Assembly: GCF_006874645.1 (NCBI RefSeq) | Contig: NZ_CP030082.1 | Location: 868,001 to 932,000, forward strand | Direction of reading: 5' to 3' | Source of the DNA: Bdellovibrio sp. ZAP7 | Lineage (GTDB): Bacteria > Bdellovibrionota > Bdellovibrionia > Bdellovibrionales > Bdellovibrionaceae | DNA: 64,000 nt | Shown: piece after piece, positions 29,030-38,985 of the stretch | Layout of the letters: each line of letters begins with the position of its first letter | Numbering within the stretch: the stretch's first letter is position 1 | Program-made: the position numbers and the translations under genes | Notes under the pieces: model-generated | The model's database searches: none | What the model was told of the DNA's origin: nothing | The model's input: the letters and a program-made list of their open reading frames with translations, nothing else

Positions 29030-30811
29030 GTGAGCAAAATTACCAAAAGTAGTACAGCTGAATATTTTGCTAAAAACCTCCAGCAAGTCGGGTTCTCGTC
29101 TCCTTTAAAAGCCGTTTTGACGACTTTGAAAGAAGCCGTAGACAACTCGTTGGATGCCTGTGAATCATCCGGCATTTTGCCTGATTTGTTAGTAGAAATT
29201 TCGAAAGTTGGATCTGGTTCAACTAAAAATACTGATTTAATTCGCATCGTTGTCGAAGACAACGGTCCCGGAATCGAAGGCGAAGATCTTGCCAAGGTGT
29301 ACGGGGAATATCTTGCATCTTCTAAGTTCGGCCGCGGTCAATGTTCTCGCGGTCAACAAGGTATCGGTATTTCTGCTGCCACGACATGGGCGCAGATGAC
29401 AAATGCTCGGGGTGTGAGCGTTGTTTCTAAAACTAAAAAAATGCGTAAAGCGATATCGGCTCAGGTGGATGTCGACATCAAGTCCAATACGGGTCTTGTG
29501 AAAAACAAAGAATCGATGGATTGGGATCGCGAACACGGTACACGTGTTGAATTCATCCTTGATGGACGTATTCAATTGAACGGTGATGGTGGTATTTTGA
29601 CTTATATCGAGGGCACAATTCTTGTGAATCCTCATATGACAATCACATATAAACTAAACGATGCCGACTTCGTTACTGTGACTCGTGTAAGCAATGAAGT
29701 TCCTAAAGTTCCAGAGGCTTCTTTGCCACATCCGCACACGTTTAAACTGGGTGAGTTTATCACTCATTCTACGTTGTTCGGTAAAACGACTTTGTCTAAG
29801 TTCTTGAAGACCGGTTTCTCTCGTATTTCTGATCAATCGATCTCTGATTTCGTGAAAAAAGGTCTTCCGAAAAACCTTCTTGAAAAGCCTTTGACAGTAT
29901 TGTCTGAAGAGGACTTCAAGAAAGTATTCCAAGCTGTTCAAAACACAGATTTGATGGCTCCTTCCACTAAGTCAGTTTTGACTGTAGGTGAAGAAGCACT
30001 TTCTAAATCTATCACTCGTTTGGGTGAGATCGACTTCTTTGCAGTTGTGACTCGTAAACCGACTATTTGTGACTTTAAACCCGTGGTTGTCGAAGTCGCA
30101 TTGGCCCGTTTCAAAGATCGCAATCAACAAAACGATTCTCCGGTAACACTTCTTCGCTTCGCCAACCGTGTACCACTTCAGTTCGATAAATCGGGCTGTG
30201 CGATCACGTGGGCGATTGAATCTGTGAACTGGAAAACTTATGGCTTGGGTCAACCTAAAGACTCTTTGCCACTAGGTCCTTACATCTTTGCGATTTCTAT
30301 CGTATCTCCGTTTATCAAATTTAAAAATGCCTCGAAGGAAACTATCGATGCATCTGAAGAGTTGGTGGCAGAGATTCGCTTGGCGTTGATCCAAGCAGGT
30401 CAAAAACTTTCTCGTCACATCAAAAAAGAAGTGAAGGAAGCTGACCTGGAAAGAAAATTGGCTCACATCGAGCAATTCGGTCCGATCCTGGTTGAAGGGT
30501 TGGCACGAATCATCAATGCGCCAGAGTCTCGTAAGAAAAAAGCTGAAGAAGGTTTGAAAAAACTTTTGGGCCGCGATTCTGAAGAGGCGATTGCAGATCT
30601 TGAAGCAGCAGAATCCAAACTTTTGGCGCAAAAACAGCGCGAAAAGAAAAAAGGCATCGATCATGGTGACGAAGAGGAAATCGATGTGATTTCCGCTGAA
30701 GACATCCATGAGGAAGCCGCTCAAGGCACTAAAAAATCTACGACGAAAAAAGCGGTTGGCACTCAAAAAGCCACGGCTACGACTAAGAAAACGACTGGGA
30801 AAAAAGCGTAA
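29030..30811 (+). CDS. top6B: DNA topoisomerase VI subunit B
   Basis: 593 residues, GTG start with AAGGA upstream. The ATPase subunit of type IIB topoisomerase. GHKL motifs: N-box LKEAVDNSLDACE (Glu35, Asn39), G1 VEDNGPGI (76-82) and G2 SRGQQGIGIS (106-115). The archaeal-type transducer signature LLRFANRVPLQFDKSGCAIT and ESVNWKTYGL are present. The C-terminal 40-45 residues form an acidic patch followed by a Lys/Thr/Ala tail resembling bacterial histone-H1-like proteins. Topo VI is standard in archaea and plants but sporadic in bacteria. The stop overlaps the start of top6A (TAATG). Confidence 0.95.
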   Translation: MSKITKSSTAEYFAKNLQQVGFSSPLKAVLTTLKEAVDNSLDACESSGILPDLLVEISKVGSGSTKNTDLIRIVVEDNGPGIEGEDLAKVYGEYLASSKFGRGQCSRGQQGIGISAATTWAQMTNARGVSVVSKTKKMRKAISAQVDVDIKSNTGLVKNKESMDWDREHGTRVEFILDGRIQLNGDGGILTYIEGTILVNPHMTITYKLNDADFVTVTRVSNEVPKVPEASLPHPHTFKLGEFITHSTLFGKTTLSKFLKTGFSRISDQSISDFVKKGLPKNLLEKPLTVLSEEDFKKVFQAVQNTDLMAPSTKSVLTVGEEALSKSITRLGEIDFFAVVTRKPTICDFKPVVVEVALARFKDRNQQNDSPVTLLRFANRVPLQFDKSGCAITWAIESVNWKTYGLGQPKDSLPLGPYIFAISIVSPFIKFKNASKETIDASEELVAEIRLALIQAGQKLSRHIKKEVKEADLERKLAHIEQFGPILVEGLARIINAPESRKKKAEEGLKKLLGRDSEEAIADLEAAESKLLAQKQREKKKGIDHGDEEEIDVISAEDIHEEAAQGTKKSTTKKAVGTQKATATTKKTTGKKA

Positions 30812-31974
30812 TGGCAAAATTACTTAGCGTTCGCGAACTTAAAATTGATATTCCTAAGGAAGCCCGCATCTTGGCAGACAAGATGTTGAAGGACCTTGAG
30901 TCTTCAAAACGTCCTGTTTTGGAAGCGGTGAAGACTTCATTGGATAACTCTTTGTACAATGCCAAGGTGGGATACTTAACTCCGGGAGATAAAGTTGTCC
31001 GTACGGAATTGAATGTTTCGTCAGTACAAAAATTGGCTCGTGTGGTTTTTGTTTTGGAAATTCTTTTGGGCAATTTGGAAATTGGCTCTGTAAATACAAA
31101 ACGTGAGCTTTATTACATGTGCAAAGGTTTGATCAAAGGAAACTCTCGTTTGAAACCGTTGGATTTCGATGATCAATCTGAATCAGATTCTATCATCGAT
31201 TTTATCGGGGACATGCTGGAAGTTTATCGTGAGGAGCTGAACTGTTTCGCCAATGACCGTGGTGGACAAACTTACTCGCAACAATTGGTTGTAACTGAAA
31301 CATTGAACGATGGCGATAAAGCAGTTGTCGATCTTTCGACTCTTGGGACTTCACCGTTTCAACCAAAAAATAAACCACAAGCTTTGAAATTGAAGGCGAA
31401 AAAGAAAATCGACTTCTGCTTGATCGTTGAATCTGAAGGTACTGCCAATACTTTGGTATCCATGGGTTTCACAAAACGTAACAACTGTATCGTCATGGGT
31501 GCCCAAGGGGTTCCATCGAACGGTGTTCGTGGTTGGTCAAAATTGATTCAAGACGAACTGGATGTTCCGATGTACTTCTTCGGAGATCTCGATGCGTACA
31601 CAATGCAAAATATCTTCCGTACTTTGAAGGCGGGTTCTGCGGCATCTTTGATCCGTAACTCTCATTTCTCTGCACCGAATGTTAGATTCTTGGGCGTATT
31701 GCCTGAAGATGTGAAAAAGTATGATCTTCCTCACTACAAAGTGAAAGAGTCTGATCCAGCTGAAGCCCGCGCTTTGAAAAAAGCCAAAGATGCTTTGGAA
31801 AACGATCCGTTCTTTTTGGATAAAAAGAATAAATCACTGGCGGACATTTTGCGCTGGTTGATCAAGGAAAAGATTCGTTGCGAGCAACAATCGTTCTTCT
31901 CTGTCGATCCAAAAGATCCAATCAAGACAGAAAAACTGATCCTGGAAAAAATCAAAAGAGGATCTTACGTTTAG
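30811..31974 (+). CDS. top6A: DNA topoisomerase VI subunit A (Spo11-like)
   Basis: 387 residues. The DNA-cleaving subunit. The 5Y-CAP motif NTKRELYYMCKG (96-107) carries the catalytic tyrosine (pair 101-102), and the TOPRIM domain shows LIVESEG (Glu207) and the metal-binding GDLDAYT (Asp259, Asp261; archaeal enzymes have DxDPxG). With subunit B it forms an A2B2 enzyme that relaxes and decatenates DNA with ATP. Both subunits keep their catalytic residues, so the enzyme looks active. Translationally coupled to top6B and followed by a terminator. Confidence 0.95.
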   Translation: MAKLLSVRELKIDIPKEARILADKMLKDLESSKRPVLEAVKTSLDNSLYNAKVGYLTPGDKVVRTELNVSSVQKLARVVFVLEILLGNLEIGSVNTKRELYYMCKGLIKGNSRLKPLDFDDQSESDSIIDFIGDMLEVYREELNCFANDRGGQTYSQQLVVTETLNDGDKAVVDLSTLGTSPFQPKNKPQALKLKAKKKIDFCLIVESEGTANTLVSMGFTKRNNCIVMGAQGVPSNGVRGWSKLIQDELDVPMYFFGDLDAYTMQNIFRTLKAGSAASLIRNSHFSAPNVRFLGVLPEDVKKYDLPHYKVKESDPAEARALKKAKDALENDPFFLDKKNKSLADILRWLIKEKIRCEQQSFFSVDPKDPIKTEKLILEKIKRGSYV

Positions 31975-32038: not shown

Positions 32039-32160
32039 CAGGGTTCGATGATTTCTTTTTTGTGTTAAGTTTTTCTGGGTTGGCTGCGGAACTCGCACGA
32101 AGCCAGCTAGGCTTCCCAGCGAATTCGAATGACGAAGTCTAACCTTCATGGAGAAGAGAG

Positions 32161-32700
32161 ATGTTTCGTACCTTAATTGCTTGTCTAATGCTCGGTTCGC
32201 AGATTGCATGCGCTCATCAATCTCAAGATCTTGCCAAGACTCCACCGGTTCCCTATGAGGGTGAAATCTTGGACTTCTATTCGACGAAAAACCCTTACGG
32301 AGAGTTTTCTAATTTTGCGGAGTATCCGGTTTTTGTGGATGGGGAGTGGTGGAAGACTTCTGAGCATTATTACCAAGCACACAAGTATGAAAAACCAGAG
32401 TTGATCAAATGGGTCCAAGATGCAGAAACTCCAATGGAAGCGGCCAAGCGCGGTCGCGATGGAACTGTTCCTAAGCGCGCCGATTGGGATCAGCGCAAAG
32501 ACGAGTTCATGGAGAAAGCCGTTCAGGATAAGTTCACTCGTCATGAGGAATTGAAAGTTCTTTTACTTTCCACGGGCGAAGCTCGACTTTATGAACACAC
32601 CAAGAATGATTGTTATTGGGGTGACTGTGGCGATCGTACGGGTAAGAACAAACTGGGTCTTTTACTCGAGCGCATTCGCGAGGAATTAAAAATTCGCTAG
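32161..32700 (+). CDS. NADAR-domain lipoprotein
   Basis: 179 residues. The N-terminus MFRTLIACLMLGSQIAC looks like a lipoprotein signal with the lipobox Cys at about 19. The rest is a full NADAR (YbiA/RibX) domain: NPYGEFSNFAEYPV, WWKTSEHYYQAHKY, EAAKRGRDGTVPKRADW, AVQDKFTRHEELKVLLLSTG and CYWGDCGDRTGKNKLG. NADAR proteins are N-glycosidases acting on riboflavin intermediates or ADP-ribosylated nucleobases and are normally cytosolic. Export to the envelope is unusual and suggests an extracellular or periplasmic ADP-ribose-type substrate. RBS GGAGAAGAG precedes the ATG. Confidence 0.82.
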   Translation: MFRTLIACLMLGSQIACAHQSQDLAKTPPVPYEGEILDFYSTKNPYGEFSNFAEYPVFVDGEWWKTSEHYYQAHKYEKPELIKWVQDAETPMEAAKRGRDGTVPKRADWDQRKDEFMEKAVQDKFTRHEELKVLLLSTGEARLYEHTKNDCYWGDCGDRTGKNKLGLLLERIREELKIR

Positions 32701-32760: not shown

Positions 32761-33201
32761 ATGAAACTTAAAATTTACTTTTTGCTGGGACTGTTTTTGA
32801 TGTTGGGCGCTTGCGCTTCGAACCAGGAAAAGCAGGAATTGAAAAATCCGCTCGAGGTTTTGAACGGCAAAACCTACAACGCCCGTGAAGACTCTGAACT
32901 CGGTGGGGTGCCAGTCACTGGCACTAAAAATAAAGTCACACGCATCCATGGTGTGATTCTTCAAGGTGAGGGTGTGACTGCCACTCCCGTTAAGTTTATT
33001 TCCGTCAGATTGCTGGATGATGATGGTGTGACGATTGCCAATGCGACGTCTGATATCAAAGGCGCGTTCGTTCTTTCAGGTATTTTCTTTAACGGTCACT
33101 ACGTTGTGGAAATCACTTCTAAGAAATTCAAAGGTGCCACTCGCGTATACGTAAATCGTTACGAGCAAGAGATCACTATTCAAGCAACGCCCGTTAAATA
33201 A
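32761..33201 (+). CDS. Small lipoprotein, carboxypeptidase-regulatory-like fold, paralogue 1
   Basis: 146 residues. The leader MKLKIYFLLGLFLMLGAC ends in a lipobox Cys. The C-terminal 90 residues look like a transthyretin/carboxypeptidase-regulatory-type beta-sandwich: VRLLDDDGVTIANATSD, KGAFVLSGIFFNGHYVVEIT, SKKFKGATRVYVN. The start at 32761 has GGAGGGACT in front. It is followed 55 bases later by a clear paralogue, so the pair arose by tandem duplication. Confidence 0.72.
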   Translation: MKLKIYFLLGLFLMLGACASNQEKQELKNPLEVLNGKTYNAREDSELGGVPVTGTKNKVTRIHGVILQGEGVTATPVKFISVRLLDDDGVTIANATSDIKGAFVLSGIFFNGHYVVEITSKKFKGATRVYVNRYEQEITIQATPVK

Positions 33202-33256: not shown

Positions 33257-33700
33257 ATGAAGAACTGTGTTTATTTATTTTTGAGCCTTACAGTTGCGAT
33301 GATCTTGGGATCTTGTGCTCACGAAGACGAGCAAAAGCCTCAGGATCTTGCGACCGATCATTTTGAAGTTTCCCAGCAAGGTGGAGACGACAAATTGGTG
33401 CGCTCTTCCGGCGTTAACGGCATCACGGAGCAGGTTGTATTGAACGGCATGCTTAAAGTCCGTGGCGTGAATCAAAAATATATGAACGGTGTTGTCGTGC
33501 ATCTGATTGATCGCGATGCCACGATTTATGCTCGCGGGCGTGCAGCCTCTGATGGTTCTTTTCAGCTTTCGGGACATATTCCAAAAGGTTTTTATCTGAT
33601 CAAAGTCATCGATCGCAGATTCAAAGGCGAGTTGCCAGTTCATTTGAACGGGATCGAGCTAAAAAATCTCACGGTTCCCGTTCAAACTGTCATTCGCTAA
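33257..33700 (+). CDS. Small lipoprotein, carboxypeptidase-regulatory-like fold, paralogue 2
   Basis: 147 residues; leader MKNCVYLFLSLTVAMILGSC with the lipobox Cys at 20. It shares the order VxLxDxDxTIxAxxxxxDGxFxLSG, GxYxxxxIxxxxFKGxxxVxxN and a terminal VPVQT-like strand with the preceding gene. No known function. The stop codon lies inside a 20-bp perfect palindrome shared with the convergent glycosyltransferase gene. Confidence 0.7.
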   Translation: MKNCVYLFLSLTVAMILGSCAHEDEQKPQDLATDHFEVSQQGGDDKLVRSSGVNGITEQVVLNGMLKVRGVNQKYMNGVVVHLIDRDATIYARGRAASDGSFQLSGHIPKGFYLIKVIDRRFKGELPVHLNGIELKNLTVPVQTVIR

Positions 33701-37902: not shown

Positions 37903-38436
37903 TGGTTGATTTCGAAATTCGCCGAGCGGCTCACGGTGATGAGCCGTACCTCGCGAAAGTTCACATCCAAGCTTGGCAGGAAACTTACCCGGGCTTGGTT
38001 CCTGATTCCTATTTAAATTCCCTCAGTGATGAACTCGCCGAAAGAGTCGAGATGTGGCAAAACATCCTCGCGAACCCCAAGCGTTGGGCTTGGGTGGTCG
38101 TCGTGAACGGCTCCATCGTCGGCTTTATCCTGTTCGGCCCTCCACGCGATGAAAACCGCGACACTTACATCGAATTAGGCGCGATCTACGTTCTGAAATC
38201 CCACCACTCTGGGGGGTATCGGTCACGCGCTTCTTTCCACTGGTTTTGATTTCATGAAATCCCTCGGCTATCAGAAATCTTACTGCTGGGTTTTGGATGG
38301 CAATTCCACGACTGCTTTTTACGAAAAAAATGGTGCCAAGTTTTCTGGGCTGACAAAAATCGAAGAAACCGGCGGCGTCGACCTGACGGAGCTCGCCTAT
38401 GAGTGGTCTGCGCTGGAAACTAAATCACGCCCATAA
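37902..38436 (+). pseudogene. GNAT acetyltransferase interrupted by a +1 frameshift in a G6 run
   Basis: Two frames together make one GNAT protein. The first (37902-38249) has FEIRRAAHGDEPYLAKVHIQ, AWVVVVNGSIVGFILFG and IELGAIYVLKSHHSGG, then leaves frame and stops. The second continues KSLGYQKSYCWVLDGNSTTAF and YEKNGAKFSGLTKIEE to 38436. Reading five instead of six G at 38211-38216 restores SGGIGHALLSTGFDFMKSLG, the acetyl-CoA-binding loop of the family. The break is therefore a one-base insertion in a homopolymer: a true mutation, phase variation or a sequencing error. The same bases belong to the 11-nt motif found around the neighbouring transposase. Confidence 0.85.
38215..38225 (-). repeat. 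RAYT-associated 11-nt motif, copy 1 (inside the GNAT frame)
   Basis: TGACCGATACC on the minus strand. Extended as CGCGTGACCGATACCCC it matches copy 4 over 17 bases, and over 15 bases (with the C-run) it matches copy 3. It coincides with the frameshift site. Confidence 0.6.
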
Positions 38437-38985
38437 CTCTATCAGTTGTTCCTGACTAAGTCCGCGCAGACGGGTTTTCGAATAAGGTCTGCCGTTCGCC
38501 TCGCACTCATTCAGCTGAATATAGTCCCGCACGATCCGATATGCTTTGTACCCTTTTACCACGCGGCTAAACGGCCGATACCTCCAAACCTTCGGCCCGT
38601 CGTTCTTCGTATCGAAGGTATCGGTCAACCTCTGCGCAAACTGTCCGGCCAACACCCGCAAAAAACTCTGCAGCTGCGACCGATGTCCGCCGCGAACTAG
38701 CAAATGAATATGGTCATGCTGCACAGAAAACTGCTCAACCTTTACATAAAATTTGAACGCATACTTTCTTAACACCCGCGTAAGCACTAAAAAATTCCGT
38801 GGATGCCGAAGTCCCTTTTTGACGGCCGTTTTATTTACTTTGAATACCAGATGTATTGGATCCTTCGTCGACAAAGGACGTGCGCCGCGACCCTTCGATG
38901 ATTTTCTAAGAATGCCACCGTGACAATGGCGATGTTTCCAATGAGTTTTCAGAGGTAGAAATGTTTGTTGCTTCATATATGGCAC
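38425..38985 (-). mobile_element. REP-associated tyrosine transposase (RAYT, IS200/IS605-like Y1)
   Basis: 186 residues. N-terminal HGGILRKSSKGRGARPLSTK and IHLVFKVNK fit the RAYT/TnpA-REP branch. The HUH motif is QHDHIHLLVRGG, and the catalytic tyrosine is expected in YKAYRIVRDYIQLNECEANG. Such enzymes nick single-stranded DNA at short palindromic REP sequences and are usually single-copy, domesticated genes. Its 3' end overlaps the acetyltransferase frame by 12 bases, convergent. Five copies of an 11-nt motif lie in and around it, in opposite orientations on the two sides. Confidence 0.88.
38617..38627 (-). repeat. RAYT-associated 11-nt motif, copy 2 (inside the transposase gene)
   Basis: TGACCGATACC on the minus strand, encoding the LTDT of RLTDTFDTKND. 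May be chance because it is coding, but it is an exact match. A degenerate GCCGATACC occurs nearby at about 38575. Confidence 0.45.

Follow-up and report, generated by a model that had tools for sequence, protein, structure and literature searches.

The gene at 32161..32700 (+ strand) of the window, as we call the whole 64,000-nucleotide stretch of Bdellovibrio sp. ZAP7 DNA analyzed here, encodes a 179-residue protein in which a complete NADAR domain of the YbiA type follows a Sec leader, and sequence comparison gives good support to export as a trait of window-type NADARs in the Bdellovibrionota. We lean towards reading this protein as an extracytoplasmic, envelope-anchored N-glycosidase, which would act on prey-derived ADP-ribosyl-guanine or similar N-ribosides. 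The enzyme family is already known; what is undescribed in the literature searched is its extracytoplasmic place and its export across a phylum. Hitherto NADARs have been placed inside the cell, as antitoxins or as enzymes of metabolic repair, and the available portions of open-licence papers on NADAR, YbiA and Bdellovibrio ADP-ribosylation describe no exported NADAR (PMC11543638, PMC11125620, PMC11833690, PMC9503650, PMC13092281, PMC6469090, PMC10118281), in agreement with the view in the original prediction that known NADARs act in the cytosol. A predator phylum exporting NADARs of two lineages implies that an N-riboside, whether ribosylated guanine or something similar, is present beyond the cytoplasm, within the prey or around it, and these proteins offer a concrete place to seek new ADP-ribosylation substrates and to study how predators handle prey nucleic acids.

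The NADAR domain, the only one matched in a profile search of this genome, occupies residues 39-177 (32275..32691, +) and aligns with positions 2-163 of the 163 in PF08719 (113.1 bits against a cut-off of 35.1), so that the domain is complete. It also exceeds the cut-off of TIGR02464, the profile for riboflavin-intermediate N-glycosidases (121.2 bits; cut-off 73.7). The closest solved structures by sequence are E. coli YbiA (2b3w; E = 7e-45) and then an oomycete NADAR (8bau; E = 1.1e-8). An AlphaFold2 model based on 59 aligned sequences (pLDDT 92, pTM 0.83; the leader scored low) has the YbiA fold, as judged from its match to 2b3w (Foldseek E = 5.4e-16; Z 21.2 over 156 residues), and it also matches 8bau, which has ADP-ribose bound (Foldseek E = 6.6e-8; Z 17.7). 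The alignment comprised the window protein and 58 of the 68 loci from a species-genome scan, nine loci being omitted by name and one (L089) through a failed motif search.

The pairing of active-site residues is our own, made from alignments with 2b3w and 8bau. The available text of PMC11543638 ties a set of residues to ADP-ribose binding and catalysis, and their equivalents here, E68, K75, W109, E145, D150, and W153, are invariant across the 59 aligned sequences. The segment from Glu68 to Lys75 (EHYYQAHK; 32362..32385, +) holds the equivalents of the catalytic Glu and Lys, and Glu145, Asp150, and Trp153 (32593..32619, +) are the remaining active-site residues there; E145 corresponds to the Glu of the last strand which defines the YbiA group in the parts available of PMC11125620 and PMC11543638. 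Judged by sequence and modeled fold, the catalytic machinery is intact. With E. coli YbiA the window protein shares 46% identity across the domain, the fold and the active-site residues; YbiA, regarded as a cytosolic protein, lacks a leader and has some 14 residues ahead of the domain in 2b3w, whereas in the window protein a 17-residue leader and a linker come first. The NADAR of Phytophthora nicotianae (8bau) has the same fold, and its ADP-ribose-binding structure includes E43, K50, E125, D130, and W133, which have equivalents in the window protein; it differs in its overall sequence (26-30% identity) and its extra N-terminal elements, and no leader is mentioned for it in the text available.

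Within this conserved domain lies a candidate disulfide, Cys151 with Cys156 (CYWGDC; 32611..32628, +), which all 13 orthologues retain and all 49 loci outside the Bdellovibrionota lack; YbiA has AYWGDG at that site. The CYWxDC pair occurs in 26 of the 34 exported rows of our tree, against 0/49 of the loci from other groups. Early-branching exported rows have neither cysteine, and L059 and L061 are without both, a joint absence that would be expected if the two residues pair. DCYW[GA]DC served as one of two seeds for the scan, which favored loci with the pair; despite this seed, no cytosolic protein with the pair was found in the species scan. The pattern fits a disulfide acquired after export.

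Given the weight placed on the leader, the start codon deserves attention. The ATG is directly preceded by a Shine-Dalgarno-like GGAGAAGAGAG (32150..32160, +), and AGGAG or GGAG stands at equal spacing in the orthologues L003 and L004. According to the original prediction, translation starting downstream of the leader would overturn the reading, and a candidate does exist: a TTG at Leu37, with GAGG 8 bases 5' of it, from which the leader would be skipped. The protein would then be an ordinary cytosolic YbiA and its "leader" a set of misread upstream codons, but we regard this as highly improbable, as no start codon stands at the equivalent position in L003, its closest orthologue, the leader and Cys are kept in 13/13 orthologues and the ATG has a strong Shine-Dalgarno sequence. 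Six other orthologues (L006, L007, L008, L009, L012, L013) have no Shine-Dalgarno sequence and instead carry TGAAATAAC, ending 6-7 bases 5' of the ATG, which is possibly the promoter of a leaderless transcript.

The Sec leader itself covers residues 1-16 (32161..32208, +) and is followed by Cys17 (32209..32211, +); residues 1-17 (MFRTLIACLMLGSQIAC) are hydrophobic, bear an Arg and end in the Cys. Orthologues were found in 12 of 24 genomes of the genus, that of the window included, and in one genome of another genus (class search, 143 genomes). A hydrophobic N-terminus and an invariant Cys17 are present in all 13 (window, 11 further genus genomes, one other genus), as are the lipoprotein features of a K/R-containing n-region, a hydrophobic stretch and a Cys near residue 15-25. 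Among these orthologues the leader changes much faster than the NADAR domain, and in three close pairs the changes at codon positions 1/2/3 number 5/2/6, 6/1/11, and 3/0/14. Since second codon positions barely change, the leader appears to be translated and its hydrophobicity to be under selection.

The observation in the original prediction of a complete NADAR domain with a leader is thus upheld by PF08719 and by the 13 orthologues; its description of the leader as "lipoprotein-type" holds for the invariant Cys17 and less well for the lipobox. As a lipobox test we used a pattern resembling PROSITE PS00013: it passes in five of the 13 orthologues and fails in the window protein because of a Gln at -3, which L003, L004, and L005 share. 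The leader end A-C-A, cut before the following H, is also compatible with cleavage by signal peptidase I. Lipidation at Cys17 is nonetheless likely from sequence, and with Ala at +2, which by the E. coli rule leads to outer-membrane sorting, the Bdellovibrio protein would most likely be an outer membrane lipoprotein.

The family profile matches 43 of 368 Bdellovibrionota genomes, 35 of them strongly (E <= 1e-46), and inspection reveals a leader in 34 of these 35; the 35th is a 455-aa fusion frame. The latter (L158, in genome G358) comes from another Bdellovibrionota family; there a YbiA-type NADAR ends the 455-aa open frame, and it adjoins the exported clade in the tree. Relatives in the Bacteriovoracaceae and Halobacteriovoraceae are likewise predicted to be exported, with leaders of the lipobox or signal-peptidase-I type, and because some exported members end in one and others in the other, the conserved property is export, not anchoring. 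The envelope anchoring originally proposed is well supported as far as export goes; it is weakened by the atypical lipobox and by the signal-peptidase-I type leaders of several Bacteriovoracaceae relatives, and many relatives in that family would apparently be released.

The 68 loci of the species-genome scan divide into 19 from Bdellovibrionota, among them one labeled "Proteobacteria" (L047) that the tree groups with them, and 49 from cyanobacteria and others. An automatic leader detector called 16 of the 19, against one of the 49 (L067), a call made from a far-upstream GTG and counted as false. Its three misses have N-termini that look leader-like by eye; L045 is weakly hydrophobic and L053 and L058 lack K/R. 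As a control, 29 of 398 sampled Pseudomonadota genomes had a match, in 30 places, of which L199 is an MltB-like false match; no exported NADAR was found in these 29 genomes. In a tree of 76 domains (L043-L045 were omitted as copies of L005, L011, and L014) a branch with support 95/80 separates the 34 exported rows from all others, and their neighbors are E. coli YbiA and the L158 fusion. Closer cytosolic relatives may exist, as sampling used the exported family as query. Weak second-rank matches to the family profile (G143, G175, G162, G165, and others) were left unread. A viral origin was considered and set aside: relatives occur on six viral contigs, with leaders on none. One genome of the genus, G016, has a second NADAR (L042 / L017), which is leaderless and very divergent.

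A further exported NADAR family is more widespread. The class search with PF08719 returned 14 genomes with weak matches only (L028-L041), and these loci all have leader-like N-termini by eye, of both kinds; all 14 match the gp30.3 family (PF08010) as well as NADAR; in the member shown neither score reaches its cut-off. This is their likeness to the phage T4 gp30.3 NADAR; they differ from it in carrying leaders. The family matches 112 of 368 Bdellovibrionota genomes, or 110 when G024 and G151, with only weak, partial matches, are removed, and its profile aligns with that of the window family at 98.9% probability. Leader and lipobox-like Cys are present in 9/9 members from the genus; L246 gave no match to the pattern used.

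Within the 24-genome genus, 12 genomes carry the window family, nine the second family, three neither and none both. This lack of overlap has a hypergeometric probability of 1.7e-4 when kinship is ignored. In an rpoB tree of 23 genomes, from which the G013 fragment was dropped, the two family labels need six and four changes, and G023, with the second family, sits among window-family genomes. Simulations on this tree gave no overlap in 348 of 22,245 and 80 of 37,771 runs, and independent pairs (none changing the same way, one or two the opposite way) are too few to reach significance. Outside the genus, by our own count, nine of 23 window-family genomes carry the second family too, which opposes a general exclusion. 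Functional replacement of one family by the other was accordingly rejected, the kinship-aware tests being no more than suggestive.

Gene order around the second family is conserved. In seven of seven regions read, a class-V aminotransferase gene comes after the second-family gene, and next stands the gene for an exported protein with a Fic domain (PF02661; 32 bits in G004), adjacent to BamB; the neighborhood was read in seven of the nine second-family genomes, with G007 and G010 assigned from agreeing positions. The nine second-family genomes, and no others, have long matches to the Fic protein, the one in G005 covering residues 7-335 only. The exported protein has 770 residues (L282:4903-7215, - strand, and equivalents) and a conserved C-terminal part (WRG...YSTSKREVVGKAF...), with two tandem copies in G008. 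In window-family genomes the BamB slot holds two other leader-bearing proteins (11/11 read; G019 gave no BamB match and its slot was not read), forming a two-gene exported cassette (L317:2928-6832, L321:1702-5717, and equivalents in 11 genomes). One cassette protein weakly resembles nucleoside phosphorylases (PNP_UDP_1, 18.5 bits against a cut-off of 25.1; PDB profile match at E = 0.022). The other has a conserved FRG...SFxSFT...EIE pattern which by eye looks like an R-S-E ADP-ribosyltransferase; Pfam, PHROGs, and PDB profile searches returned no match to a transferase, so this remains a lead only and we do not adopt the transferase reading of the slot proteins. In G025, which has neither NADAR family, other genes occupy the slot; the contig of G020 ends there, and G017 gave no BamB match, so that its slot was not read.

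How might an exported NADAR work? The proposal we favor is that a YbiA-type N-glycosidase has been relocated out of the cytoplasm, its leader directing passage through Sec, and that once outside it would cleave N-glycosidic bonds between ribose and guanine or a similar base. It would most likely do so in the prey compartment, where prey DNA and RNA are degraded and nucleotides re-used, and ADP-ribosyl-guanine or related N-ribosyl adducts would be stripped from prey nucleic acids or nucleotides ahead of uptake. In the available text of PMC11125620 and PMC11833690 all NADARs tested, E. coli YbiA included, reverse guanosine ADP-ribosylation; the latter adds that the secreted enzyme ScARP places ADP-ribose on guanosine, both in nucleic acids and in mononucleotides. 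According to the available part of PMC7925074, Bdellovibrio secretes nucleases that break down prey DNA and makes its own DNA out of prey nucleotides. Since tested NADARs de-ADP-ribosylate guanosine and prey nucleotides are re-used, a glycosidase clearing prey guanine adducts is the simplest reading. Surface protection from ADP-ribosylating toxins, as originally suggested, gains no direct support, since the tested NADARs act on nucleic-acid guanine and not on surface components, as far as the available text goes (PMC11543638, PMC11125620, PMC11833690). Against the clearing of prey adducts stand the non-canonical lipobox of the window protein and the 12 of 24 genus genomes that lack the window family. 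So too do the annotated substrates of YbiA, which are riboflavin precursors and cytosolic.

These substrates bear on an alternative we consider unlikely, in which the exported enzyme would serve nutrient scavenging on some other N-riboside (riboflavin precursors, or breakdown products of NAD or nucleosides) unrelated to ADP-ribosylation. The TIGR02464 score of 121 bits against 73.7 speaks for it, as does the weakly nucleoside-phosphorylase-like protein of the window-type slot; the neighborhood of the window gene is not conserved and thus offers no linked pathway gene, and activity on guanosine-linked ADP-ribose is common to all family members tested in the available text of PMC11125620 and PMC11833690. 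Less probable still is that the protein partners the predator's exported effectors in self-protection or recycling, reversing adducts made by ADP-ribosyltransferase-like or Fic proteins sent into prey. In all nine genus genomes with the second family, its gene shares the slot with that of an exported Fic-domain protein; this and the exported pair in the window-type slot point that way, but the profile searches confirm no transferase, the window gene does not adjoin the slot and co-occurrence may reflect descent. We give similarly little credence to a broader scheme in which predatory Bdellovibrionota run extracytoplasmic ADP-ribose chemistry, with exported Fic or transferase-like effectors modifying prey molecules and a surface-anchored NADAR, from either of two distant families replacing each other among species of the genus, reversing the modification on the predator side or recovering nucleotides.

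DarT1-linked NADAR antitoxins (BC4488 family) and the myxobacterial YarT-YbiA pair belong to the same superfamily, and guanine de-ADP-ribosylation would be expected of the window protein from the catalytic residues it has in common with them. Unlike them, it has no adjoining DarT or conserved partner, has Glu and not Asp at the distinguishing position, and is predicted to be exported. No toxin-linked neighbor emerged, the neighborhood not being conserved among the genus regions compared. DarT (PF14487) occurs in one of the 24 genus genomes, which lacks the window-family gene. A DarT-NADAR toxin-antitoxin reading was rejected given the lack of a conserved partner and the absence of DarT from this genome, and so was an anti-phage reading (NF053876, DS-32 NADAR, 84 bits against a cut-off of 240; PADLOC PDC-M42C, 26.6 bits).

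Directly upstream of the NADAR gene, 29030-31974 encodes the two subunits of DNA topoisomerase VI (538 and 482 bits against NCBIfam profiles), an enzyme rare in bacteria; subunit A had a match in six of six further genus genomes searched. Two small lipoprotein-like genes of one blast cluster follow the NADAR gene (32770-33198 and 33257-33700), the product of the first with a weak CarboxypepD_reg match. An operon with these two genes was considered and rejected, as synteny is kept in two of ten genus regions (L141, L142); an orthologue was called in nine of the ten, L144, uncalled by the script, being read separately, and on the short contig L005, also examined, gene order differs. Further along, an open reading frame at 38425-38985 (- strand) resembles by eye a REP-associated Y1 transposase.
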